A DNA stretch of 50,251 bases from a virus, in the IMG/VR virus record IMGVR_UViG_3300022208_000006, positions 1 through 50,251 of that record, one strand, 5' to 3'. Each line of letters begins with the position of its first letter. The stretch's first letter is position 1. This document shows, piece after piece, positions 10,385 to 39,386 of this stretch. The position numbers were made by a program, and so were the translations under genes. Under the pieces are notes generated by a model. It was not told the DNA's origin. It did no database searches and saw only the letters and a program-made list of their open reading frames with translations.

Positions 10385-10786
10385 CTATTTGGCAGATTCT
10401 AGCAGAAATCCCATTCTGCAAAGTTGACAATCACATCTATTAGAATTTTTACAAACCCATTTTTTGTATTTCCGTTCCCACATTTTGCTGTAATACCTAT
10501 TCCAATAATCAGCCTTATTTTCTTCACTTCTTTCACATAATTTAAAAAACAAATTTGATACTGCTTTAAATGATTTAGCGAGTAAGGTACAGGCTATCTT
10601 ATTTCTATTTAATACTGTTACAGACCATACCTTATCAGATCCTACCCATGCTTGAGCAGACCAGAATGGATGTTTATCTTTTTCTATAAATTTACAATGG
10701 ACTCCTAATTTCTTTCGAGTTAAAGTCACATCCTCCCATCCCATTTCTTGGTCAATGGCATTTAATATATTATCGTCGTAATTCAT
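10385..10786 (-). CDS. Hypothetical protein with C-terminal Cys cluster
   Basis: 133 residues, start inside the end of the integrase gene with GGGGATAAGAG upstream. Basic, Trp-rich centre (YWNRYYSKMWERKYKKW) then CDCQLC near the end, a possible metal site. Function unknown; translationally coupled to the integrase. Confidence 0.5.
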   Translation of the reverse strand: MNYDDNILNAIDQEMGWEDVTLTRKKLGVHCKFIEKDKHPFWSAQAWVGSDKVWSVTVLNRNKIACTLLAKSFKAVSNLFFKLCERSEENKADYWNRYYSKMWERKYKKWVCKNSNRCDCQLCRMGFLLESAK

Positions 10787-11870
10787 CTCTTATCCCCACC
10801 ACCCTATCAAACACCCCCCGCTTTACCTCAACAACGGCATTCTCCCTATATTTCTCAAGAGTTTGAAGGCTGATGTCTGCCGCTACTGCAAGATCAGCAT
10901 CAGAAATACCATCCCTACGGGCTTGTGTAATTGATGAGTGTTTGAGTATGTTGTAAAGGTTTATGTCGGCTTCATTCGCTTTTTTCAGCGCCCTTTTCAG
11001 AATTGAGGTCATGGTCGATTTCGTGTAATGCTTGGTTTTGGTCTTTCCGTATGGGTTTACGAAATAAAACGGGCTGAATGACTTAGCCATTTGCTCCATA
11101 TAGGGCTTAAACGCCCTGGCGCATGGTACGGTATAGTCTTTTTCGGTCTTGGTATAGTCAACGAGTTTGGACAGGACAAAACCACGCTTAATAGACCATG
11201 TCCCATCCTCAAAATCGGACTTGTAAAGTGCCATTGCTTCACCTGGCCGGCGCATATGAAAATAGCACCACACGAAAATAGGCTGATGACATTTCGGCAT
11301 TGCATGAAACACGTTAAATGCTCGGTCAACCGGAAGCCACTTGATAGGCTTCTTTTGAATCTTGAAATCCGACTTCCTTGGAAACTCCGGCACGATTTCA
11401 ATCATCCGGCTACGCTTTGCCTGATGATATGCCGACTTTAAAACTGCGAGGACGGTCAGTTTTCCCATGCCTTTAATTGGCAACTGATTCGCAAATTCTA
11501 ACAATATCTGAAAATCAATCTCATGCAGGGCTATGTTTTTTTTATCAAACCAGGGGCGGATGTGGTTCCTAAGAAATCCTCTCCACGAATAATACGTGTT
11601 CGCAGATAGATTGGGTCGTTGTGACTCAAGAAAAGCATCAAGGAATCCCCCGACATCAGATTTTCTCTTTGACCATTTATTAATATTGAATATGCCTCTC
11701 CGCCAGTCTGAGTACATAGCCCCATGTATGGCATTAGCGTGATTCTGATGCCAAAAGTGGTTCCCATCTAAATCCCTCCATATCTTATAGGGTTTCTTGG
11801 TAAATTCGTCATACCAACTGATATACCATCTGCCTGTACCTTTGTCTTGACACACCTTTCCCTTTTCCAT
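10770..11870 (-). CDS. int: Tyrosine recombinase / phage integrase, divergent active site
   Basis: 366 residues from ATG 11870, chosen for AAGGAGGACTGG just upstream. The N-terminus resembles an arm-binding domain (GRWYISWYDEFTKKPYKIW), followed by a core-binding SAM-like domain and a catalytic domain. Arg I is in FHMRRPGEAMAL and the nucleophile is probably Tyr in QTLEKYREN. The usual HxLRH box reads YNILKHSS, so the first His and second Arg are replaced, and the later His is not evident. The fold is clear but activity is uncertain. Its role would be site-specific integration; no att core could be assigned. Confidence 0.75.
   Translation of the reverse strand: MEKGKVCQDKGTGRWYISWYDEFTKKPYKIWRDLDGNHFWHQNHANAIHGAMYSDWRRGIFNINKWSKRKSDVGGFLDAFLESQRPNLSANTYYSWRGFLRNHIRPWFDKKNIALHEIDFQILLEFANQLPIKGMGKLTVLAVLKSAYHQAKRSRMIEIVPEFPRKSDFKIQKKPIKWLPVDRAFNVFHAMPKCHQPIFVWCYFHMRRPGEAMALYKSDFEDGTWSIKRGFVLSKLVDYTKTEKDYTVPCARAFKPYMEQMAKSFSPFYFVNPYGKTKTKHYTKSTMTSILKRALKKANEADINLYNILKHSSITQARRDGISDADLAVAADISLQTLEKYRENAVVEVKRGVFDRVVGIRDELRR
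10797..10813. repeat. 17-bp direct repeat, copy 2
   Basis: Identical to 8799-8815. On the minus strand it encodes the FDRVV near the integrase C-terminus. Confidence 0.7.
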
Positions 11871-11908
11871 TTTCCAGTCCTCCTTTTGAGTAGGTTCAAA
11901 AGAAGTGC

Positions 11909-11936
11909 TGTATAATTTTTTTGGCAAGGGTGTCAA
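11909..11936 (-). promoter_or_regulatory. Candidate integrase promoter
   Basis: On the minus strand TTGACA (11936-11931), 16-bp spacer, TATACA (11914-11909), about 40 nt before the integrase ATG and within the gap after the upstream gene. A good -35 and a moderate -10. Confidence 0.45.
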
Positions 11937-12527: not shown

Positions 12528-12995
12528 TTAAACAAAACTCAAATATTGATCTACAAGTTCGTTCATTCTTTCCGGTGTTATCTTGCCGCCATAAACATTC
12601 TTGATTAATAAATCCACCGTTTTTGAATACAAATCTCTAAAGGCTTGCTCATCCATTTTAGCAAACGATATGCTGTCCGCTTCGACCCGTGATGAACCAT
12701 CAAGCCGCACAACAACAGAATAAAAGCCGCATAGAATAGCAATATCCTTTCTAAACCTGTCGAAGTTTTTTTCTGGTTTCCCATATTTTGAATTTATTTC
12801 TCCCGGTTCCCAATTCTCAAAAGCGATATTTAAAAGAGCAAAATATTTCTTGTGTCTCCAAAGCTGTCGCCTGCGTTTCCAGGGAGCTTTTACATCGTCA
12901 CCGATTTTATTTTTCTTATCCCATTCTACTGCCAATTCATTTGAACAATAATATGTTTGGGGTTTTATCTTTGTTAAGATTATTAAATCCTTCAT
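12528..12995 (-). CDS. DUF1367-family phage protein
   Basis: 155 residues from ATG 12995, which overlaps the upstream stop (TAATG); a longer start at 13037 is less likely. The conserved stretch HKKYFALLNIAFENW, then FRKDIAILCGFY is typical of DUF1367, found among phage recombination/replication genes. Molecular role unknown. Confidence 0.65.
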   Translation of the reverse strand: MKDLIILTKIKPQTYYCSNELAVEWDKKNKIGDDVKAPWKRRRQLWRHKKYFALLNIAFENWEPGEINSKYGKPEKNFDRFRKDIAILCGFYSVVVRLDGSSRVEADSISFAKMDEQAFRDLYSKTVDLLIKNVYGGKITPERMNELVDQYLSFV

Positions 12996-13234
12996 TATAA
13001 GTTCCCACTCTCTATTAAAGCATGGCATTTCCAACACACAATCTCGCCATTTTCTTCCGAATCATCCCCACCAGCACCCTTTGACTTGATATGGTGGAAA
13101 TGCGTGGTTTCCGGTGGGGTGTATAAATTGCATCTTCCACATCTTTGGAACTGCTTATTCCACATCATTGTCTTGAGCTTGACGTATTCATCCCTGGTCA
13201 GCTTGATTCGCTTCTTTTTGGGGATTGGGTTCAT
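12995..13234 (-). CDS. Small HNH-type endonuclease
   Basis: 79 residues. CGRC and CWKC form the zinc frame and HFHHIKSKGAGGD with HALIE gives the beta-beta-alpha metal fold of compact HNH nucleases, which nick or cut DNA. Lysine-rich N-terminus (PKKKRIKLTRDEYVKLK). It has a weak binding site and sits between recombination-type genes, so a role in phage recombination is as likely as homing. Confidence 0.65.
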   Translation of the reverse strand: MNPIPKKKRIKLTRDEYVKLKTMMWNKQFQRCGRCNLYTPPETTHFHHIKSKGAGGDDSEENGEIVCWKCHALIESGNL

Positions 13235-13611: not shown

Positions 13612-14204
13612 TATCTTGCCCACTCAGGTGGTTCACCAAGTGGAACACCGTCCGAAAATGTGTCAATAGGTTCGGGCATCTTTATCGGCTCTGTGTTTGG
13701 TTTGGGATTGCCGTTAATAATCTTCATCATTTTCATTCCGGTTCTCACCACGATTTCCGCAAGGTCTTCCACATTCATTTGCCCGTAATCCTGATTCAAT
13801 GGCATAGCGGCAACCATCAAATCCTTGGCGTATGACACATAGAAAGATATGTCTTTATTGCTGATCGTTGGCTGTGGGGCATCTGAGCGAGTCTGAGGGG
13901 GTTTTTTGTTGTTGCCCACCATTTCATTTATGGCTGATTCGGTTTGTTGCTTATCAAGAAACACTTCCTTGACGTTATAATTGGTAAATCCGTCCTTTGT
14001 CTTTTCTTCATACTTCATCATTTTAAGACGCATTCCCTTTGTCGGAATGAATGACGATTTTTCGGGCTTGAAATATGTAAAATACCTGTCATCTCCATTA
14101 ACTTTAAAGCTATAGAGATCCCAATGACCATAATCGTTGTCGCCCTCACTTTTTTTCTTTGCCCAACTAATCGTTACGTCTGGTAGAAATTCAAATTCTT
14201 CCAT
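13611..14204 (-). CDS. Hypothetical protein, partner of the adjacent nuclease
   Basis: 197 residues, start overlapping the nuclease stop (TAATG). The N-terminal ~90 residues alternate strands (VTISWAKKK, YFTYFKPEK, YNVKEVFL), compatible with an OB-type fold; a Pro-rich linker and a helical second half follow. Position beside a RecB-like nuclease suggests a recombination role such as ssDNA handling, but no family motif is seen. Confidence 0.45.
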   Translation of the reverse strand: MEEFEFLPDVTISWAKKKSEGDNDYGHWDLYSFKVNGDDRYFTYFKPEKSSFIPTKGMRLKMMKYEEKTKDGFTNYNVKEVFLDKQQTESAINEMVGNNKKPPQTRSDAPQPTISNKDISFYVSYAKDLMVAAMPLNQDYGQMNVEDLAEIVVRTGMKMMKIINGNPKPNTEPIKMPEPIDTFSDGVPLGEPPEWAR

Positions 14205-14944
14205 TATCCCCTCGCTTTCTTTGCTATTCTTGGATGCCGTTTAAAATATAAATCAGCCATTGCGTTAAATATGGACAGGTCTTGCTCGTATGTTTTGCTT
14301 GTGTCCTTCCAATCGGGAAGTCCTGTTTCCTTGTCGAGTCTGAGAATACCGCAACCTTGGATTGCTTCAGGAATAATATTGCTTCCTTCTGTTTTCGCCC
14401 ACCGATAAGCCGCAACCTGATACTTCATCTCTGGATAATGTGCCTTTGAAGACTTCCAATCTATGACATACAGCTTGTCATTAAAGTATCCGTAGAAATC
14501 AAGCGTACCCGCCCAATCGGCACCATAGACCGTCTGCTCTAATGATATGGGTTTGAGGTTGTGTTCATTCTCCCATTCATGGAACGCAAGAATTGCTTGT
14601 TGTGCTTCTTTACTTGAAATATGGCAAGCTGTTCCATTCATAAGATAGCGCTCAATATAATTATGAACCTCACTCCCAATATCTAATGCTTTCTGGCTGA
14701 CTTTGCGGAAGTTGAAACGGGCATCATTGAGTTGATTTTCATCGACTTCCCACAAAACTTTTTGCATTACTCCATTAACCCTATCCCATGTTGGTCTTCC
14801 ATTTTCTTTAATCCATTCACATACTTGATTTGCAGACCATTGCATAAGGGGTGCGCTTGAATCTGTACAATCGCTTATGATTTCAGTAACCGAGGGAATT
14901 ACCTTCTTGCCTTTTGGGTCGTCTTGTCTTGGGTATCGGGGCAT
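14204..14944 (-). CDS. PD-(D/E)XK (RecB/Cas4-like) nuclease
   Basis: 246 residues. Ordered motifs: IPSVTEII, GSEVHNYIERYL (His of motif I), EQTVYGADWAGTLDFYG (Asp of motif II), YVIDWKSSK (D-x-K catalytic core) and YQVAAYRWA (QxxxY motif). This is the arrangement of RecB-family exonucleases used for double-strand end processing. It starts at a TAATG overlap and is followed by its probable partner gene. Confidence 0.8.
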   Translation of the reverse strand: MPRYPRQDDPKGKKVIPSVTEIISDCTDSSAPLMQWSANQVCEWIKENGRPTWDRVNGVMQKVLWEVDENQLNDARFNFRKVSQKALDIGSEVHNYIERYLMNGTACHISSKEAQQAILAFHEWENEHNLKPISLEQTVYGADWAGTLDFYGYFNDKLYVIDWKSSKAHYPEMKYQVAAYRWAKTEGSNIIPEAIQGCGILRLDKETGLPDWKDTSKTYEQDLSIFNAMADLYFKRHPRIAKKARG

Positions 14945-15589: not shown

Positions 15590-15787
15590 TTATTCCTTAT
15601 CCGGCACATTTTCCACTTTGCCATATTTTTCAAGAAGTGGTTCAACCTCATCGTCTACGCTGTATCCCCTGTCAAGCAGTTCAACTGCGTTGTGGAGTTG
15701 TCCTTTTGCAAGCATCAACCCAATCGCACCATTTTTTTGAATGTTGTAATCCGCATTCATTAACGCTTCTAATATTGTTACTGACAT
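15590..15787 (-). CDS. Hypothetical protein
   Basis: 65 residues from ATG 15787, chosen for AAGGAGG six nt upstream; the frame continues to 15946 but that part lies in the structured non-coding stretch. Helical and acidic (VTILEALMNADYNI; AVELLDRGY). First gene after the putative RNA. Confidence 0.5.
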   Translation of the reverse strand: MSVTILEALMNADYNIQKNGAIGLMLAKGQLHNAVELLDRGYSVDDEVEPLLEKYGKVENVPDKE

Positions 15788-15799
15788 CCTCATCCTCCT

Positions 15800-16350
15800 T
15801 TTGGGTTGGGGGGCAGGATTGGAAGTTTTTCTATACCGATGATTCGGGTTCCTAAGCCGATTTATGGTTAATATTGCCCTGCCCCCGTTTTGGTGATTGG
15901 CGTGTGTGGATTTCAGATTGTGGACGGTATTATTTTCTTTAACCACACGGCACTCGGCTTTCGCTTAACGGCCCCGCCTACTCGTTTGACATTCCCCGAA
16001 ACCCTAACGAGTGATGGTTATTGTCGCATCTTTTTACACACGCCAAGCTTGTTCGTTTTGGGGCAGCCAAGCACCCTTCCACTTTCACCATTACTGGTTT
16101 ACTGACCTCACCCTTACGGCGATTCGCCACCGCCCGTCAGACTTCCTGCCCCAAATTTCAAAGAACGATTATGCTGAAATGTTTCCCTCCGACAACCCCT
16201 GCCAATTTTCCTATATAGCCATTGTGCCATGTTCAGGCGCTTGCATCATTTAGTGTCAAGCCGTTACAAGGGGTTAATGGCCTTGACCCTCGCCCTACCA
16301 ACTCCACCGTCTATGCGTATGGTTCAGTTTATGGGCGTTGGACTTCTCAA
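15800..16350 (-). ncRNA. Putative large structured non-coding RNA
   Basis: A 567-nt stretch (15788-16354) without a credible gene in a compact operon holds many long perfect inverted repeats: 11 bp (15897-15907 with 16036-16046), 10 bp (16057-16066 with 16146-16155), 9 bp (15809-15817 with 15878-15886), 7 bp (15980-15986 with 16006-16012) and 7 bp (16194-16200 with 16269-16275), with smaller nested stems (16102-16106/16136-16140; 16118-16121/16125-16128). On the minus strand ACCA and TGGT (16098-16087) enclose a GTAA GNRA tetraloop, and GAAA caps a short GC stem at 15957-15964; neither loop is GNRA on the plus strand. Size, branching and phage context recall the GOLLD/ROOL class of large phage RNAs, but no family signature is recognised. 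Confidence 0.6.
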
Positions 16351-16354
16351 TCTT

Positions 16355-16486
16355 CTATTCTCTCTCTCCAAAATCGCAACCATCATCTGGCATTGCTATT
16401 TCTTCTGGATCTAGATTATCAGGATGCAAACACCGATAATCCCAATCATCCCAAAATACACATTCTTCACAATTTATACTTTCCAT
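16355..16486 (-). CDS. 43-residue acidic Cys-rich protein
   Basis: ATG follows AAGGAGCGATAG, the same binding-site sequence used at 15099. Cys at 6, 9, 19 and 37 with many Asp/Glu (CEECVFWDDWDYRC) suggest a small zinc fold. Ends exactly where the structured stretch begins. Confidence 0.5.
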   Translation of the reverse strand: MESINCEECVFWDDWDYRCLHPDNLDPEEIAMPDDGCDFGERE

Positions 16487-16566: not shown

Positions 16567-17049
16567 CTAGTAATAAATATTTCTATCATCCCATTCAACG
16601 ATGGTTCGTGATATGGCGATATCAAACATATTCCCCGGCATAGGAATACTGTTGAACAATTTCCATCTACCCTTCGGTAGCTCGACCATAAGAACTGCAT
16701 GGTCGCCTAACGGCATCCTGATAATCCGAATCCTAACGCCTTTTGGGTAGTTGAGTCTTTTGAGTGTTCCAAACATGAATGCCGAGATGTCCTCACAGTC
16801 TCCTTTAAAATCTTCGAGAAATTCCTGATAGGTCTTCCAGTAGTCGTCACAACAATCTTGTTCGTATTTTGCGAGTCTTAAACACGAACTCATAACGTCA
16901 TCTATCAGGGTTTCATTCCAACCTTCTTTTTGTATCTTTTTTTGCCAGAGTTCGATTTGCCACCGATAATCGACACCGGGATTTTCGGGTTGGAAAAACA
17001 CAGGGCAACAACTGGTCAGCAGTAGGATTATGATTGTTAGGGATTTCAT
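16567..17049 (-). CDS. Transglutaminase-like cysteine protease, lipoprotein
   Basis: 160 residues. Residues 1-14 form a lipoprotein signal with lipobox LTSC. The remainder has the transglutaminase/BTLCP layout: catalytic Cys in GDCEDISAF, His in LGDHAVLMVE, and Asn in LFNS. Such domains act as peptidases or amide-modifying enzymes. Being anchored outside the cytoplasmic membrane and expressed from the early leftward operon, it could alter the envelope or exclude other phages (inference). Its ATG overlaps the upstream TGA. Confidence 0.7.
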   Translation of the reverse strand: MKSLTIIILLLTSCCPVFFQPENPGVDYRWQIELWQKKIQKEGWNETLIDDVMSSCLRLAKYEQDCCDDYWKTYQEFLEDFKGDCEDISAFMFGTLKRLNYPKGVRIRIIRMPLGDHAVLMVELPKGRWKLFNSIPMPGNMFDIAISRTIVEWDDRNIYY

Positions 17050-17262: not shown

Positions 17263-17295
17263 ATCCTACACTTTATAAATGTTCTTGTCAAGAAC
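17263..17295 (-). promoter_or_regulatory. PL/OL: leftward early promoter with operator
   Basis: The palindrome at 17281-17295 reads GTTCTTGACAAGAAC on the minus strand. It contains TTGACA (-35), followed by a 17-bp spacer and TAGGAT (-10, 17268-17263). Repressor binding would cover the -35 box. The same 15-mer recurs at 17605-17619 in the opposite orientation. Confidence 0.75.
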
Positions 17296-17342: not shown

Positions 17343-17582
17343 TTAAAGTTTGGTAAGAATATCTAAAAGAAGTGAATCGGTTGAAACTTTGCGGGTTCGT
17401 TTGGGGCCGAGCTTGTTTAGGTTGTGAAGGATTGTCAAGAATTCATCTGCGGTCAGGGCAATCTGTCCGAGTTCTTTCCGAGTATAAACAGATCGCCCAA
17501 CATTTACCCATTTCGCCAAATCTTCTTGGTTGTATTTAAATTCTTTTCTTAATTCTTTAATGATTTCATGTGCTTTTTTCAC
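17343..17582 (-). CDS. CI-like repressor candidate (Xre-type HTH)
   Basis: 79 residues from GTG 17582, with GGAGGT upstream; the frame extends to 17663 but would run through the operator. An HTH of the lambda-repressor type spans about residues 5-55 (KELRKEFKYNQEDLAKW; VGRSVYTRKELG). It lies between the two operators and is read leftward, exactly as cI in lambda. It lacks a C-terminal oligomerisation or cleavage domain, so induction would not follow the RecA self-cleavage route. Confidence 0.65.
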   Translation of the reverse strand: MKKAHEIIKELRKEFKYNQEDLAKWVNVGRSVYTRKELGQIALTADEFLTILHNLNKLGPKRTRKVSTDSLLLDILTKL

Positions 17583-17604
17583 GAACAGTTTTACCTCCAC
17601 ATTT

Positions 17605-17637
17605 GTTCTTGACAAGAACTTATTATTTCTATATGAT
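17605..17637 (+). promoter_or_regulatory. PR/OR: rightward early promoter with operator
   Basis: The palindrome GTTCTTGACAAGAAC at 17605-17619 contains TTGACA (17609-17614); 17 bp later lies TATGAT (17632-17637). Transcription should start near 17644, the A of the next gene's ATG, and no Shine-Dalgarno sequence is present, so that message is probably leaderless. Confidence 0.8.
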
Positions 17638-17643
17638 TCGACT

Positions 17644-17832
17644 ATGAAAATTTCAGAATACATTAAGCGCCTTCGTAAAGAACTAAATCTTACGCAGGAT
17701 GAATTCGCTCAAAAAATCGGGCTTTCAAGGTCTGCTGTTGCAAAATATGAAAGCGAACAAATTTGGGGAACAATTCCCCCTGGCGATGTTTTAATAAAGA
17801 TTCAAAATCTTGAATTATCCCAAAAATCATAA
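17644..17832 (+). CDS. Cro-like repressor (Xre-type HTH)
   Basis: 62 residues, close to lambda Cro in size. The HTH is clear: LTQDEFAQKIGLSRSAV, then AKYESEQ. It is the first gene of the rightward transcript, divergent from the CI-like gene, with the operator between. ATG lies 7 nt after the -10 box and no ribosome binding site is visible. A 189-nt gap with a CCCCA/TGGGG inverted repeat follows. Confidence 0.7.
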   Translation: MKISEYIKRLRKELNLTQDEFAQKIGLSRSAVAKYESEQIWGTIPPGDVLIKIQNLELSQKS

Positions 17833-24091: not shown

Positions 24092-24272
24092 ATGTAAATG
24101 CCATTTCATTAAGATAGCAAGTAAATGCCTAAGATGCCAATGGGATGAGATTACCCTAAATGAGAGAATCTATGGGGTTATAACGGTATCTATTCCAAGT
24201 GTGGGAGATTTATCTAAACCATCGCAAACCCCAAACTGTATCACCAACCATGCCAAAGAGGACGATGCCTAA
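24084..24272 (+). CDS. Small zinc-binding protein
   Basis: 62 residues from ATG 24084 (GAGG upstream). CKCH and CLRC within the first 20 residues form a probable zinc site, WDEI follows. Unknown; followed by 260 nt of gene-free, palindrome-rich DNA. Confidence 0.45.
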   Translation: MNECKCHFIKIASKCLRCQWDEITLNERIYGVITVSIPSVGDLSKPSQTPNCITNHAKEDDA

Positions 24273-24274
24273 TG

Positions 24275-24393
24275 ATACCAAGTGCATACAATCTACCCGG
24301 TATGATACACTTATCATGTATCATTTGGTATGGTGCATAATGCATCAGGTATAACCCATTGATATTACATAGAGTTGACATAAGATATCTTAT
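24275..24393. repeat. Cluster of nested palindromes (gene-free)
   Basis: ATACCAA (24275-24281) pairs with TTGGTAT (24325-24331); inside lies ATGATAC (24302-24308) with GTATCAT (24318-24324). Next is TGCATAATGCA (24334-24344), then a perfect 14-bp palindrome ATAAGATATCTTAT (24380-24393) preceded by TTGAC. GTGCATA occurs twice (24282, 24333). This resembles an origin, packaging or operator region. Confidence 0.55.
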
Positions 24394-24453
24394 CAGCCAT
24401 GTGGAATATGTAACCAGATCGATTAGTTAAGGAACCCAGGAAAGAAACTCGAC

Positions 24454-24477
24454 GGGGGGGTGGTTGGGCTTGGGGGG
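24454..24477 (+). other. G-rich tract with quadruplex potential; possible cos/pac element
   Basis: Within 24 nt there are G runs of 7, 2, 3 and 6 bases separated by 1-3 nt, in otherwise AT-rich DNA. It lies 1.2 kb past the small terminase in gene-free DNA next to the palindromes, a plausible packaging-site location, though no cleavage site can be read. Confidence 0.4.
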
Positions 24478-24532
24478 CAAAGGTATATATCAAAACACGC
24501 TCACATTTTTTTGAATATTTTAAAGGGCATAT

Positions 24533-32855: not shown

Positions 32856-33052
32856 TGGGAGAAAAACATAAATCAAAAATACCATACGATATCCTTGGTG
32901 AAATACTAAAAGCGTATGAATTTGGAAGAAAAGAAGATTTAGAATTATATTCTAATGATTATATCGCAAGTAGTAGTTTTACAAGACAACTTGAAATTTG
33001 GGCTAATTGGACAGATATATTTGAAATTAGAGACAAATTGAGGGGGGAATGA
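32855..33052 (+). CDS. Small hypothetical protein
   Basis: 65 residues; second ATG of ATGATG behind GAGGGGGA. Helical (YDILGEILKAYEFGRKEDL). Its coding region is more A/T-rich than portal and capsid genes, consistent with transfer. Confidence 0.45.
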   Translation: MGEKHKSKIPYDILGEILKAYEFGRKEDLELYSNDYIASSSFTRQLEIWANWTDIFEIRDKLRGE

Positions 33053-33414
33053 TGGAACAGACTCACGGCAGTTGGGGTAACAGAACAAGGATATTCAAAT
33101 GGGATGGAGGTCTTGTTACCTTTTTAGACCTTGTGCCAAACCAGAGATGCAGTTGGCATTTTCACAAGAGGACTTTCAATCAGTTCTATGTGATTCGGGG
33201 TGAGTTGGGTATTAAGACAGACAAGGGATATATTACAAAACTTACGAAAGGTCAGGCGTTTACGGTAGAACCTGAAGTCAAACATGAGTTTCAGACATAT
33301 GACGAACCAACGGAAGTAATTGAGATTGCATGGACTGAATATGATGTTGACGATATTTTTCGGCAGACATTGGGGGGAGCATTAACCGAATATGATAAAA
33401 AAGCTACTCACTAG
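33052..33414 (+). CDS. Cupin-fold protein
   Basis: 120 residues. CSWHFHKRTFNQFYVIRGEL gives the first cupin motif (G/H-x-H-x3-4-E type, here H-x-H with Gln in place of Glu). LTKGQAFTVEPEVKHEFQT gives the second. Cupins bind sugars or catalyse isomerisation and oxidation; a sugar-isomerase-like or sensory role is possible. An enzyme fold among head genes is unexpected. Confidence 0.7.
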   Translation: MEQTHGSWGNRTRIFKWDGGLVTFLDLVPNQRCSWHFHKRTFNQFYVIRGELGIKTDKGYITKLTKGQAFTVEPEVKHEFQTYDEPTEVIEIAWTEYDVDDIFRQTLGGALTEYDKKATH

Positions 33415-33736
33415 TATATCCGTTGACCTTTTTAAGACCGAGGACAGAACCGGCAACCTGATGAAGTACGCAAGGATGCGTGAACAACCCGGCTGGAAAG
33501 TTCATCAGATGTTGTTAGTAGCAATAGCAAATAAGATGTCAGAGCATATGCTGAGTGAACAGTTCGCAAAGCTAAGTGCTGAAGATATGAAGACCAATCA
33601 AAAGGCGTTCTATTTCACAAAGGAGATTATCGACTTTTTAATAGACCCATTGAAGGTCGCAAAACAACTTGCAAAGATAGCTTTGCATAACGAAAAGATG
33701 GGAGCAACCGTAGGGCAACCGAACCGGAAGTCATAA
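33392..33736 (+). CDS. Hypothetical protein upstream of scaffold
   Basis: 114 residues, overlapping the cupin gene by 23 nt; weak binding site. Helical and basic throughout. Possibly a head-assembly accessory protein by position; no motif recognised. Confidence 0.45.
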   Translation: MIKKLLTSISVDLFKTEDRTGNLMKYARMREQPGWKVHQMLLVAIANKMSEHMLSEQFAKLSAEDMKTNQKAFYFTKEIIDFLIDPLKVAKQLAKIALHNEKMGATVGQPNRKS

Positions 33737-33762
33737 GGGAGTGACCAAAAAAGGAGAGAAGC

Positions 33763-34518
33763 ATGGCAGAACAACCTACAGTGAAGGAACCCGCAGTGGA
33801 ACCGACACAAACACCTGAAAGTGCGTCAAGTGACATTCTTGCAAAACTAAAAGAATTGGAAATCAACGACCCGAAGAAACTTGAGAACATGGCAATTGCC
33901 TCATCTCAGGCAGGGAAGTTAGCCAACGACTTGGGATTGACACGGCAAGAATTGGCAGGAGTGAAAGAAGAACTTGCGAGAATTACGCAAAATTCGTCCC
34001 AACCCTATGACTTTAACCAAGAAATAGATGTTGGGAGTGTTGTACGCAAGGAAGCCAAAATAGCTTCAAAGGAAGCTATCACGGAATACATGAAGGAATT
34101 TCAGGAACAACAGACGAAAGCAACCGAGGCATATTATCAGGACATGGGCAAGATTCAGAATGATAGAAGATACGGGGTTTTGAAAGACCCGTTTGAAGAA
34201 CACATGAAAAGCCTTGACGTCCAGAATAAAATCAGGAGTGGTCGTACGACCATAACTGAGGAATACTCCAAGATAAGAGATGCCTATATTGACATTCTTG
34301 AAGAAAACCTTGACAAAATCGGGAAGACAACCCCGGTTAAATCTCCGCACTTGGAGACAGGTGATACACACATAGTTCCCATGCCAACCACGGATGAAGA
34401 CAAGAAAGATAAAATTAAAAACATAACAGATCCGGGTAAAGGCTGGAGTGGTACTAACGAAAATATACAGGAATTAGTAAAAACGTTTATGTCCGGCGAC
34501 CCGATCTTTAGGCGATAG
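33763..34518 (+). CDS. Scaffolding-like protein
   Basis: 251 residues immediately before the capsid gene. Disordered Pro/Glu/Thr N-terminus, long charged helical region (residues 25-190, e.g. LTRQELAGVKEELARITQ), and a basic/aromatic C-terminal tail. This composition and position fit a phage scaffold that guides capsid assembly and is then removed. Confidence 0.65.
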   Translation: MAEQPTVKEPAVEPTQTPESASSDILAKLKELEINDPKKLENMAIASSQAGKLANDLGLTRQELAGVKEELARITQNSSQPYDFNQEIDVGSVVRKEAKIASKEAITEYMKEFQEQQTKATEAYYQDMGKIQNDRRYGVLKDPFEEHMKSLDVQNKIRSGRTTITEEYSKIRDAYIDILEENLDKIGKTTPVKSPHLETGDTHIVPMPTTDEDKKDKIKNITDPGKGWSGTNENIQELVKTFMSGDPIFRR

Positions 34519-34529
34519 GAGAAAGATTA

Positions 34530-35717
34530 ATGGGCGTAGGTAATATGGTAATAGTGAGTGATGCTTACAGTACTCAGTCAATTACTGGGAGTACCAATAA
34601 GCGTGACGTATCCGATCTGCTCGACCTTTGGGCGCATCGTGATACTCCACTCTTAAACAGAATTAAATGGGCAAGTGAATCCGGTGGTCTTCAGAGAGAA
34701 TGGCTGTCGGAACATCTTGGCTTCGGTTACATTCAGACAAGCGGCACGATTGCAAGTGACGCCGGGAATTTTGTGCCGACAACTTCCGGTACTGGTCTTG
34801 CTACCACGGAAGTTATTAAGCAGGTGCAGGTCGGTTCGCTTCTGTATGCCCATGTGAGTGGCGATGCCGGTCATATGTGGGCAACGGTTGTGTCGGTTGC
34901 TTCGGCATCATGTCTGATTGAAATCAGCCAGCTTGTAGCTACCTCATCGGCAATTGCGGCAAGTACCAAGCTTTACATAGTTGGACATTTCGTGAACGAA
35001 GGTTCAGACCCGTTCCCTGACACTTCACGGACGAGAAACATCCTGTCCAACAACTTTGCGATTCTTCGCAAGGACATTAAAATTACGGGTTCTATGGCTG
35101 CAACGGATATGTACGCAGTCGGGAACGAACCTTCGCATCAGATGGCAATGAGGCTCTTGGAGATGCAGTTTGAGCGTGAGAGGTCTATCCTGTACTCTTA
35201 CACTGCGGCAAGGGATGCTTCACAGCAGGCACTTATGAACGGTGTCATGGGCTTCATTACCCAAAATAGTGTTACGGGTTCAAATATAGACACAACCACT
35301 ACAACATTGATCGAATCGACCTTTAATAATGTGGTTGCGGCATGTTGGGAGAACGGAGGTACTCCCAATGTTTTTGTGGGCAACGTAAAGCAGATGCGGT
35401 TGTTCACCGATTGGGACGATTCAAAGATTCGTACACGTCCTGATTCAAGGGTAGGCGGTCATTGGATTACTTCTTATCTCTCAGATACAGGTCTTGAGAT
35501 TGACCTTCTGCCGTTACGTCATGCACCGATGAACCTTGGGTTTGTGCTTGACACCAACCTTATGTCTCTTGTTCCGAAGAAGGGACGTAAACTGATAATC
35601 GAAAAAGCTGCCCCGGCAGCTACAGACTATGATCTGTGGATGCTCTTGAGTGAATACACCCTTGAACTACGCAAGTACGATATGGGCGCACACGGGATGT
35701 TCACGAAGCTTAGTTAG
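34530..35717 (+). CDS. Major capsid protein, SU10/DUF5309 type
   Basis: 395 residues, AGGAGAAAGATTA before ATG. The start (DAYSTQSITGSTNKRDVSDL), the RDTPLLNRI segment and the C-terminal YTLELRKYDMGAHGMFTKL are hallmarks of the DUF5309 family, which includes the SU10 podophage capsid protein. It is expected to have the HK97 fold. Followed by a terminator-like hairpin, usual after highly expressed capsid genes. Confidence 0.8.
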   Translation: MGVGNMVIVSDAYSTQSITGSTNKRDVSDLLDLWAHRDTPLLNRIKWASESGGLQREWLSEHLGFGYIQTSGTIASDAGNFVPTTSGTGLATTEVIKQVQVGSLLYAHVSGDAGHMWATVVSVASASCLIEISQLVATSSAIAASTKLYIVGHFVNEGSDPFPDTSRTRNILSNNFAILRKDIKITGSMAATDMYAVGNEPSHQMAMRLLEMQFERERSILYSYTAARDASQQALMNGVMGFITQNSVTGSNIDTTTTTLIESTFNNVVAACWENGGTPNVFVGNVKQMRLFTDWDDSKIRTRPDSRVGGHWITSYLSDTGLEIDLLPLRHAPMNLGFVLDTNLMSLVPKKGRKLIIEKAAPAATDYDLWMLLSEYTLELRKYDMGAHGMFTKLS

Positions 35718-35720
35718 TAT

Positions 35721-35745
35721 AACGGCCTTTGGGGGCGTTGTTTTT
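35721..35745 (+). terminator. Terminator-like hairpin after the capsid gene
   Basis: AACG(G)CC pairs with GGGCGTT (one bulge) over a short loop and is followed by GTTTTT. It probably ends a fraction of the capsid transcripts. Confidence 0.5.
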
Positions 35746-35782
35746 CCGGCCGGAACAGGGTGGTAGTACCCCCGCTACCACC
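35744..35782 (+). repeat. Tandem hairpins downstream of the capsid gene
   Basis: TTCCGGCCGGAA is a 12-bp perfect palindrome (35744-35755). GGTGGTAG (35759-35766) pairs with CTACCACC (35775-35782) over an 8-nt C-rich loop. Together with the terminator there are three stem structures in 62 nt, which may protect the capsid message. Confidence 0.55.
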
Positions 35783-35795
35783 CAAACTTAAAATA

Positions 35796-36119
35796 ATGCC
35801 AAACAAACGAACAATACAGAAGATTCTTGAGGCGAATAAAGAAAAAGGATTCGTCAAAAGAATATTAAATCCAGAAAAATATCCTACATTGCCATTGGGT
35901 GATGGGAGGTCTGGAACCCATTTAATGAGTTGGGGAAAAATAGATGATAAATATGTAGTATTCCCAACAATTTTATATGATGAAGGTGTTGGTTTAAGAA
36001 GATTTAGTCCTTCTGAAGCGTTGAGTCATGTAATGCAAACTGATAATTTCATAGAATTTAATACACCAGAAGAAGCTGACTGGTTTTCCAAAAATTATAA
36101 AAGAGTTTGGGGAAAATAG
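35796..36119 (+). CDS. Phage structural/ejection-associated domain protein
   Basis: 107 residues from ATG 35796. FVKRILNPEKYPTLPLGDGR, then STH-like GTHLMSWGKIDDKYVVFPTI and EEADWFSKNYKRVWGK, resembles a domain found in phage internal virion proteins, often fused to lysozymes, but here stand-alone. More A/T-rich than its neighbours. Stop overlaps the GTG of the next gene. Confidence 0.5.
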   Translation: MPNKRTIQKILEANKEKGFVKRILNPEKYPTLPLGDGRSGTHLMSWGKIDDKYVVFPTILYDEGVGLRRFSPSEALSHVMQTDNFIEFNTPEEADWFSKNYKRVWGK

Positions 36120-37351
36120 TGGAACAACCCACTTACGAACAGTGCATAAACGAATGTCCCAACCTTGAGAAAGTTGTGAGCAAGGATATGTGGAACTACG
36201 TCACGGGCTGTGACAGGTTCACACAATCCGCAATGCAGGAAAGGTGGGACAGGAACGCAAAGAAGAACTTAAAGAAAATATACCCGAAGCACAAATCCTT
36301 GACTCATGCTTTCCTTGGGTTCGGCAAGGACAAGGCATTGATAGGGGTTGGTGCGGGGCCGAGCTTGAACAATAACATAGATCATCTGGGTGAGATATAT
36401 AGATTCAACGCACAGTTTACCCTTAATAATCAACATTTTATAATCGCCGCATCGAATCATCAGTTCAAGCCGTTACTAAAGAAAGGCATATTCCCGCATT
36501 TCGTGTTTCTTACGGACGGTGGGGATCATATATACGACCAACTCTGTACCGATATTCCGAAATTGGGGCAGGCATCTGTTCTGGTAGCAACGATATTCGC
36601 AGACCATAAGACGGTAAGGGATTGGTGCGGTCAGGGCAGGAACGTATGCTTTACACTTCCCAGCTCTGACAACTACCAACAGATGTTCAAGGACATCATA
36701 GGAGAAAACCCAGAACCCTTAGTTGTGGGAAGTGGCGGGAACGTCCTGAACAATATGTTCGCAACCGGCATAAGGATACTTCATGCACGTTATTTTATGG
36801 CGCTTGGGAATGACCTTAGTTACCCGTATAACCCCGATATTGAGAAGCGAAGACAGATGTTCTATGCCGATGGGGATTATTCCGTAAACATAAAAAAGGG
36901 AGTGGACGAAGCAAAAGACAGGTATGTGTGGTTGGGGTTTAAGATGAGGGACAATCCCTTTGAGCCGGGGAAGAAAATAATAGACTTCGCTCCGGTTAGT
37001 ACGTCCAGGCAGATGTTTGTGTATAAGACCTGGGCGGAACTTCATGTAACCTCATGGGCATCATCAGCACCGAACGACCCGTTTATTTACTTCAACTGTT
37101 CCGAGAGTGGCATTGCGGGAGTGTTGGCGCACAATTACGACTCATACGAGTTACTTGAAGACCCTGACAACTGGTATCTCATAGATGAAGTCCTACCAAA
37201 GAGATGGAGAACGAGGTCTTTTTTACAAGCAGTGAATCAATTTTTGGAGGCTAATTTAATATGCAGAGAAAACATTGCAAGGGAGTCGAGTGTAATTCTT
37301 TCGCCGCACGGGATGGCTGGTGCAAGAAGTGTCGCCCAAAGCATAAGATAA
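36119..37351 (+). CDS. MptE-like / DUF115 protein (glycosyltransferase-type fold)
   Basis: 410 residues, GTG start behind TTGGGG, overlapping the previous TAG. ALIGVGAGPSLNNNIDHL (near 75) and IIAASNHQFKPLLKKGIFPH, then FVFLTDGGDHI, are the Rossmann-like blocks of the MptE-like/DUF115 family, whose members include a pterin pyrophosphokinase and Maf-type flagellin glycosylation proteins. A nucleotide-using role in glycan modification is inferred, given the sulfotransferase downstream. Its last 30 codons overlap another gene. Confidence 0.65.
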   Translation: MEQPTYEQCINECPNLEKVVSKDMWNYVTGCDRFTQSAMQERWDRNAKKNLKKIYPKHKSLTHAFLGFGKDKALIGVGAGPSLNNNIDHLGEIYRFNAQFTLNNQHFIIAASNHQFKPLLKKGIFPHFVFLTDGGDHIYDQLCTDIPKLGQASVLVATIFADHKTVRDWCGQGRNVCFTLPSSDNYQQMFKDIIGENPEPLVVGSGGNVLNNMFATGIRILHARYFMALGNDLSYPYNPDIEKRRQMFYADGDYSVNIKKGVDEAKDRYVWLGFKMRDNPFEPGKKIIDFAPVSTSRQMFVYKTWAELHVTSWASSAPNDPFIYFNCSESGIAGVLAHNYDSYELLEDPDNWYLIDEVLPKRWRTRSFLQAVNQFLEANLICRENIARESSVILSPHGMAGARSVAQSIR

Positions 37352-37476
37352 AGAAAAAGATGTGGCGAATACGAGACAGTTTTCATCCGACCACAAAGAT
37401 AGGCGGGAACGAGGCAAGGCCGCAGGAGTTCAAGTTCAGGAACGGAAGGTTCGGTATAGCCGAGAGGGGGAGATAA
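37261..37476 (+). CDS. Zinc-binding basic protein overlapping 3' end of DUF115 gene
   Basis: 71 residues. GGAGG lies 10 nt before ATG. HCKGVEC and WCKKCRPKHKIKKK give a four-ligand zinc site in a basic context. Starts 91 nt before the end of the upstream gene in another frame, a long overlap. Unknown role. Confidence 0.5.
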   Translation: MQRKHCKGVECNSFAARDGWCKKCRPKHKIKKKMWRIRDSFHPTTKIGGNEARPQEFKFRNGRFGIAERGR

Positions 37477-37676
37477 TGACCATAGGGATGCAATTTGAAG
37501 GAATCTGTATGATGTGCAGAAAGCCGATGCTTGTGCATACGGTTGGCATAGACGGAAAGCAACGCCCGTTCTGCCCTGAATGTCTTGAGTTGGTGGAAGC
37601 AAAGACAAAGATGGCTTTAGAGAAAAGGGGCAAGCAAATCAGGGGCAAGGAGATGAATTTCGGTAAGGCTAAATAA
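37476..37676 (+). CDS. Zinc-ribbon microprotein
   Basis: 66 residues from ATG 37476 (GAGGGGGAGATA; TAATG overlap). CMMC and CPEC form the ribbon, followed by a basic helix (LEKRGKQIRGKEMNF). Links the glycan-type enzyme to the sulfotransferase gene. Confidence 0.5.
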   Translation: MTIGMQFEGICMMCRKPMLVHTVGIDGKQRPFCPECLELVEAKTKMALEKRGKQIRGKEMNFGKAK

Positions 37677-38500
37677 TGGACACATGGCGGATCAGGTCAA
37701 CTCATGTGGGTGTTTACTTTTGGTATGAGTTAAAACACATCATAAGAGACATTGACCATGAATTAGACCTTACCATACTTCCGGGCATACATCGTTCAGG
37801 TACGTCAGTTATTTTTCAATGCTTACATGCGACTGACGGTTTTCAGGAGGAAAACCAATTAAATCTTATCGGTGATCCGCCAACGGAACATAGGCTATGG
37901 AGAATTGCTAATTATCGACTTGCAAAATATTTGGGTGCAACTGTACTCATGCCGGGTTCTGTTCGGGACAAATATATTAGTGATTTTCTTGTCGGCAAGG
38001 TTGACAACGACAAAGAACTGAAACCGGACATAAAGGAAGAAATGGACGAAATGGTTGGTATTTTAAAGTGGCAGAAGTTGAAACTAATAAAAGAACCCAC
38101 ATGCCAACTTTCGCTTCAGACTTGGATAAACAATTACGATTGTTTCAAGAACGCAAAATACATATGGACACGAAGAAACTACAGGGAAGTTGCAAAATCG
38201 TTAGTCCGGCTGAAAGTCGCAGACAGATTGCAGGACGGAAAAATGATACAGACCGGATACAGGGGGGTTCTGACGGTACAGAGGGCAGAGAAGTTATCAA
38301 GATATTGGGACAGTATTTTAGAGAAAATTATGCCGCAGGTCAACCATATAGAGGTTTGGCATCACGACCTTATAAACGACACGAAAAACACGTTTGACAG
38401 GATTTCGGAATTTGTTGGTGCAGAAGTAAACACGGAGGCGTTTGATTTAAAGAAAGTATGGGGGGATATTGAGGTTACAGAACCCAGAAGCGAGGATTGA
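37676..38500 (+). CDS. Sulfotransferase-like protein (PAPS-type P-loop)
   Basis: 274 residues, TAATG overlap at the start. LPGIHRSGTSVIFQCL matches the 5'-phosphosulfate-binding loop (RSGTS), and YIWTRRNYREVAKSL the 3'-phosphate-binding region with Arg and Ser. The remaining helices fit the sulfotransferase fold. It could move sulfate from PAPS to a glycan or protein. Neighbours are the DUF115 and radical SAM genes, so the three may act on one product. Confidence 0.7.
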   Translation: MDTWRIRSTHVGVYFWYELKHIIRDIDHELDLTILPGIHRSGTSVIFQCLHATDGFQEENQLNLIGDPPTEHRLWRIANYRLAKYLGATVLMPGSVRDKYISDFLVGKVDNDKELKPDIKEEMDEMVGILKWQKLKLIKEPTCQLSLQTWINNYDCFKNAKYIWTRRNYREVAKSLVRLKVADRLQDGKMIQTGYRGVLTVQRAEKLSRYWDSILEKIMPQVNHIEVWHHDLINDTKNTFDRISEFVGAEVNTEAFDLKKVWGDIEVTEPRSED

Positions 38501-39386
38501 GAATTGCTCGATTTGCAACGCAAATTGTATCATCTGCCCACGGGAGAAGATGACTCGTCCGAAGATGATAATGACCAACAAGCACTTTGCCCGTCTTGTG
38601 AATCAGGCAAAGGACTTGGGAACAGAGACAATCTCGATATTCGGATTCGGGGAACCCTTAATTGACAAGGACGTTGTGTGGAAGGTTCAGTACTGTTCTA
38701 CCCTTGGGCTTGACACTTTTATCACGACAAACGCTTCACTGCTTAACGTAGACATGGGATACGACCTGATAAGCGCAGGTCTGACACACATAAGGTTTTC
38801 ATGTCATGGAATTGAGAACAACTTTAACAAAGTACACAAAGGACTGAAATGGGATGCTGTAAGCAGGAACATAAGCAATTTCGTTGCAATGAACAGAATC
38901 AAGTTCAACAGCGCAACGATTGTGAGTGTGAGTGTCATACCGATGCACAGGGAGAGTGTGTACGAGATGCGTCAGTTCTGGGAGAAGAAGGTTGACTATC
39001 TTGAGATTTGGAAACCCCATAATTGGGGAGATGCTATGGATTATCGAAAGGGTGAGTCGGTCAAGCAGACTTGCTTTCGCCCTTTTACTGGTCCTCTACA
39101 AATCAACGCTGATGGTACTGTCATGGTATGTTGTTTTGATTTTGATGCCAGCATGGTTGTTGGTTGCACACATTCGCAATCATTGGAGGAAATCATCAAA
39201 GGTACATGGTTCAGGGACGTAAGGGACAGGCACAGAAGGAGAGACTTCAAAGGTCTGCCCTGCGAATCATGCGACCAGTTATATGAGTACGCAAAGGCCG
39301 AAAACCCTTTGCTTTATTCTAATAGAGACAAAGAACGTAAAATAGGCGTGACTTCATCCACGAAGTTCTGCCTGGAATGTAATTAG
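38469..39386 (+). CDS. Radical SAM/SPASM-domain enzyme
   Basis: 305 residues, TTG start behind GGGGGGATA. CNANCIIC is the CX3CX2C motif for the SAM-binding 4Fe-4S cluster; FGFGEPLID is the GGEP-like motif. The C-terminal part (CFRPF, VMVCCFDFD, CESC and a last CLEC) supplies Cys for auxiliary clusters of SPASM type. Such enzymes modify peptides or small molecules. It overlaps the sulfotransferase gene and directly precedes a Cys/Gly-rich virion-type protein. Confidence 0.8.
   Translation: MRLQNPEARIENCSICNANCIICPREKMTRPKMIMTNKHFARLVNQAKDLGTETISIFGFGEPLIDKDVVWKVQYCSTLGLDTFITTNASLLNVDMGYDLISAGLTHIRFSCHGIENNFNKVHKGLKWDAVSRNISNFVAMNRIKFNSATIVSVSVIPMHRESVYEMRQFWEKKVDYLEIWKPHNWGDAMDYRKGESVKQTCFRPFTGPLQINADGTVMVCCFDFDASMVVGCTHSQSLEEIIKGTWFRDVRDRHRRRDFKGLPCESCDQLYEYAKAENPLLYSNRDKERKIGVTSSTKFCLECN

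Follow-up and report, generated by a model that had tools for sequence, protein, structure and literature searches.

The early leftward operon of a tailed temperate phage holds a 567-nt stretch that is most likely a structured non-coding RNA encoded on the minus strand. This reading is based on stems that follow one another in series, an enrichment in GC, the lack of a coding signal and the position within the operon. The narrower proposal, that the region is an orphan multi-domain RNA carried within the early leftward transcript, we consider about evenly balanced. Operon direction, a GNRA loop and an A/G-rich composition lead us to infer that minus is the functional strand. To our knowledge, only few RNAs of such size have been found in phages, and the functions of two of them, GOLLD and ROOL, are still unknown.

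Genomic setting and coding potential

The window, which is the entire 50,251-base IMG/VR virus record, belongs to a tailed temperate phage whose genes include those for a terminase and a portal. The features discussed here are compiled in Table 1. A small HTH gene is flanked by two divergent promoter-like sites, each of which overlaps a perfect 15-bp palindrome, GTTCTTGNCAAGAAC; the two copies (17281-17295 and 17605-17619) are the sole perfect ones in the contig. Palindrome pair, divergent sites and HTH gene together form a textbook repressor/operator layout. By analogy to phage lambda, the leftward and rightward sites may correspond to pL and pR. The leftward operon contains the candidate RNA element at a distance of about 0.9 kb from the putative pL, on its downstream side. 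Transcription from this promoter would make the element a segment of the early leftward transcript, in which it may be retained or from which it may be cut out. No terminator was found between the putative pL and the element or at the position where the element ends. As the best rightward promoter-like match nearby is the putative pR, which is directed away from the element, a plus-strand transcript appears unlikely.

Table 1 Features of the phage early region and of the candidate RNA element
Feature	Position	Strand	Remarks
Integrase	10770-11936		
NinB-like protein	12528-13037		
Exonuclease	14204-14944		
Downstream ORF	15590-15787	-	65 aa, no known family
Candidate structured non-coding RNA region	15788-16354	-	RNA nt 1-567; gene-free, GC-enriched, serial inverted repeats
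Shine-Dalgarno GGAGG of the 65-aa ORF	15794-15798	-	predicted partner nt 187-195 (16168-16160)
Domain D	15809-15886	-	nt 469-546; 9-bp closing stem GGGGGCAGG/CCTGCCCCC
Alternative arm-swap pairing	15810-16152	-	GGGGCAGGA (16152-16144) with TCCTGCCCC (15818-15810)
Second arm-swap helix	16066-16060 with 15885-15879	-	CTGCCCC with GGGGCAG
Domain C	15897-16046	-	nt 309-458; 11-bp closing stem TTGGCGTGTGT/ACACACGCCAA; hairpin ACTCGTT/AACGAGT within
Domain B	16057-16155	-	nt 200-298; 10-bp closing stem TTTGGGGCAG/CTGCCCCAAA
5' part	16156-16354	-	RNA nt 1-199; helix AACCCCT/AGGGGTT (16275-16269 with 16200-16194)
Upstream ORF	16355-16486	-	43 aa, Cys-containing, no known family
Putative early leftward promoter pL	17263-17291	-	TTGACA-17-TAGGAT, overlaps palindrome GTTCTTGTCAAGAAC; consensus match only
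Small HTH protein	17343-17663		between the two promoter-like sites
Rightward promoter-like site, putative pR	17609-17637		

The first-pass annotation had described the element as 567 nt without a credible gene in a neighborhood where genes overlap or touch. The coordinates hold, and the stretch is bounded by the 43-aa and the 65-aa ORF; the statement about the neighborhood is true in part, but gaps of 80-130 nt are also present in the operon. In a codon-usage gene call, no other stretch of the contig left without a gene is as long as the element; 24092-24532 comes second. The open reading frames within the element yielded coding scores that are negative or near zero for most of the region; the best internal ORF, with 38 codons (16114-16230, minus strand), reached +4.1, compared to +7.6 to +15 in the short neighbors. 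Pfam and PHROG returned no credible match for the six plus-strand and three minus-strand ORFs of the element. A credible coding frame, which would have spoken against an RNA, was not found by scores, Pfam or PHROG. The GC content of the element (49.2%, contig mean 41.3%) falls within the top 2% of the sampled windows, and all other sampled windows reaching this value are situated in the late region.

Some further features of the contig deserve mention. The second long gene-free stretch, 24092-24532 (441 nt), has short inverted repeats too, ATGATACA/TGTATCAT being one example. A perfect 14-bp inverted repeat, GATTATCAGGATGC, has its arms (16414-16427 and 16713-16726) in the 43-aa ORF and in a 160-aa ORF upstream of the element. 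A gene for a radical SAM/SPASM enzyme (38469-39386), an uncommon find in a phage, lies in the virion structural cluster; most of the contigs with a related portal also have it (50-55% identity). Possible modification genes are also found among the structural genes (33049-38500): those for a cupin (33049-33414), an MptE-like protein (36107-37351) and a sulfotransferase (37676-38500), all with homologues in related contigs.

Stems and domain layout

The perfect inverted repeats of 11, 10, 9, 7 and 7 bp sit where they had been annotated; overall, the element has perfect repeats of 11, 10, 9 and 9 bp plus several of 7 bp. The three longest give three closed domains in series, separated by 10-nt linkers, and the RNA would fold into a 5' part and, after it, domains B, C and D, each closed by its stem. 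Within the 5' part, the AACCCCT/AGGGGTT helix is predicted with a pairing probability of 0.93-0.98 in six of its seven pairs. Domain B encloses CTGAC/GTCAG, GGCGGT/ATCGCC and a GNRA hairpin, ACCA-GTAA-TGGT. This GTAA tetraloop on its ACCA/TGGT stem is present on the minus strand (16098-16087), as is the annotated GAAA loop (C-GAAA-G at about 15963-15958). An internal duplication giving rise to domains B, C and D was hinted at by short direct repeats and was rejected as not significant.

We compared the repeats to dinucleotide-preserving shuffles of the element. Four inverted repeats of at least 9 bp were observed where 0.41 were expected (P = 0.001), a count that places the element in the top 2% of the contig windows. 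Three disjoint consecutive stems of at least 9 bp occurred in 0.07% of the shuffles (about 7 in 10,000) and in no other region of the contig. By shuffling, the helices thus exceed chance (P about 7e-4), with a statistic that was chosen after the repeats had been seen; other phage DNA, 834 kb in total, reaches the same number of serial stems in 1.1% of its windows, and many of those loci were picked up through chance matches to motifs and look rich in AT. Because of the post hoc choice and of these other phage windows, we take the domain architecture as suggestive rather than proven.

The motif GGGGCAG/CTGCCCC occurs twice in the element, and its copies alternate in orientation. As noted in the first-pass annotation, it is present in both domains: four of the ten copies in the contig lie within 343 bp. 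The annotation had proposed that the arms could swap, and pairing between domains B and D is indeed plausible in the folding model. Constrained to swapped arms, the RNA folds at -162.8 kcal/mol, and constrained to three separate domains at -159.2 kcal/mol, with an unconstrained optimum of -163.0 kcal/mol. In the ensemble, the stem of domain D has a probability of 0.54 and the swapped outer stem one of 0.46. The closing stem of domain B reaches 0.01 in the unconstrained model, so that the model does not favor the three-domain state. A swap between states 3.6 kcal/mol apart is thermodynamically plausible, but it is so far unproven and exists on paper only. Sequestration of the ribosome-binding site, considered as proof of a switch, was rejected: the GGAGG of the 65-aa ORF, which the 3' end of the element abuts, has a mean pairing of 0.80 and ranks fourth of 36 genes, which is unexceptional.

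Folding energy

The description of the region as highly folded did not find support in its minimum free energy (MFE). The minus strand has a z-score of +0.40, and 64 of 100 shuffles fold equally well; the plus strand is slightly better relative to its shuffles (z = -1.12), and the local folding energy in sliding 100-nt windows is ordinary. As a single control, we used a genuine 543-nt ROOL RNA from the Ligilactobacillus plasmid pMP118, identified with Rfam. In the same test, this RNA gave a z-score of -1.09 and was equaled by 16 of 100 shuffles; it has no perfect inverted repeat of at least 9 bp. A folding energy no better than that of shuffled sequence, named beforehand as an argument against the RNA, is formally what we observed, but the genuine ROOL behaves likewise. 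As this one control is also indistinguishable from background, the MFE test appears to have little power at such length.

Known RNA families and search for relatives

Membership of GOLLD or ROOL, one of two options left by the first-pass annotation, is unsupported by Rfam. In a scan of the element with the Rfam covariance models (cmscan), no family reached its gathering score; relaxing the search to E<=10 added just two matches, both at chance level and far under the cut-off. The ROOL model (RF03087, threshold 99.1 bits) did not match the element even at E<=10; the same library picks up ROOL in pMP118 at 130 bits. This ROOL is located on the Ligilactobacillus salivarius megaplasmid pMP118 (NC_007930.1, 178263-178805). 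ROOL RNAs are further characterized by their assembly into a homo-oligomeric cage. The GOLLD model (RF02032, 150 bits) gave no match either in the Rfam scans or in a dedicated search, the sensitivity of which is undemonstrated since the control genomes were also blank. No group I or group II intron family matched at gathering score or E<=10, and ARAGORN detected no tRNA in the contig.

Searches for relatives by blastn returned nothing, neither with the element against phage records, even at E<=10, nor with the element and its flanks against plasmid records. Searched in the same way, the ROOL control also drew a blank in this phage collection and, among plasmids, matched only its own genus; the negative blastn results therefore do not exclude a diverged family. 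These ROOL matches fall on 33 plasmid records of Ligilactobacillus, with no annotated feature beneath the matches listed. Scans for exact or degenerate motifs, run on IMG/VR and once on GTDB, gave either no match or, among those inspected, chance matches, and a covariance model of domain B matched only the window itself.

A portal-based search identified 14 related viral contigs (portal 47-71% identical) that have late and structural genes in common with the phage. They are devoid of the 7.6-26 kb region, save for one small ORF, and the element is absent from all 14. The portal search of GTDB returned nothing, and the exonuclease and the 160-aa neighbor protein have no relatives in IMG/VR. As no relatives are detectable, structure and function of the element cannot be proven from its sequence.

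Discussion

Our favored reading has to be weighed against explanations that draw on the same observations. The region may be a cis-regulatory leader of the 65-aa ORF, in which the B/D arm swap or a helix covering the GGAGG switches translation, or in which elongation of the pL transcript is affected as in RNA-based antitermination. This fits the end of the element right at a ribosome-binding site, where no terminator was found, the predicted pairing of most of the GGAGG and the similar probabilities of the B/D states (0.54 and 0.46, 3.6 kcal/mol apart). We nevertheless regard it as unlikely, given that the pairing of the ribosome site is unexceptional among the 36 genes, that 567 nt would be unusually long and that the downstream protein to be regulated belongs to no known family. 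There is also a small chance that the region has no RNA function at all. It would then be spacer, eroded sequence or a recent acquisition within an early module that varies, and its inverted repeats would lie toward the high end of what chance produces. Its ordinary folding energy, the other phage windows (about 1%) that match its serial-stem count and the absence of the early module from the portal-related viruses would agree with this, but the shuffling result (P about 7e-4), the GC enrichment and the repeated arm motif argue for more than spacer, 567 nt of which phages seldom keep in an early operon.

An element acting at the level of DNA is very improbable. The four alternating GGGGCAG/CTGCCCC copies could act in replication or recombination, for instance, as binding sites or as cruciform arms, and four of the ten contig copies of GGGGCAG do lie within 343 bp in alternating orientation. 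However, they are unevenly spaced, and the stem of domain C, the strongest with its 11 bp, is without the motif. The integrase lies at a distance of 4 kb, and the replication-like gene is part of the rightward operon. We can hardly envisage one or more very short peptides, such as the product of the 38-codon ORF, or a decayed gene: the coding score of this ORF is weakly positive, but it is lower than that of its short neighbors, no Pfam or PHROG match was obtained and the scores over most of the region are negative or close to zero.

This leaves a structured non-coding RNA on the minus strand as the most likely reading. Its function is the part about which we are most tentative. Size and many-domain layout favor a trans-acting, scaffold-like RNA, which would be akin in kind, not in family, to the large phage RNAs; a role in cis on the 65-aa ORF with its adjoining ribosome-binding site ranks next, as a possibility. 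The other option of the first-pass annotation, a new class of large ornate phage RNAs, is doubtful at best from what the sequence offers. Such a class would be unrelated to GOLLD, ROOL and OLE and expressed early instead of late, and its two interchangeable helix arms would let it alternate between a three-domain and a nested fold, or link copies of it into oligomers. If the element is real, the role of such RNAs would be easier to study on it, as an independent large RNA in a defined early operon with short genes and a putative promoter close by. If it is not, it calls for caution, as long inverted repeats in a gene-free gap are then weak evidence when relatives are lacking.

Among known systems, group I and group II introns are likewise long structured RNAs set between genes, but the element has no match to their catalytic core in Rfam. 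The put-type antiterminator RNAs of phage HK022 are about 70 nt long and close to the promoter. They resemble the element as RNA elements in an early leftward operon downstream of pL; the element, compared to them via Rfam only, is 567 nt long and about 0.9 kb away from the putative pL. With GOLLD it has in common that it is large, multi-domain and phage-encoded; it differs in lacking a model match and a nearby tRNA, and many members of GOLLD exceed 800 nt (PMC12286853). ROOL is often found near tRNA islands (PMC12286853), a setting absent from this phage, which has no tRNA; the element is also without a covariance-model match to it, and the ROOL example is without a perfect inverted repeat of at least 9 bp. 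The element nonetheless resembles ROOL in length (567 nt, compared to a model of 574 positions), in its phage or prophage origin, in its many stems and in an MFE not significantly below that of shuffled sequence, as in the UCC118 example (z = -1.09).
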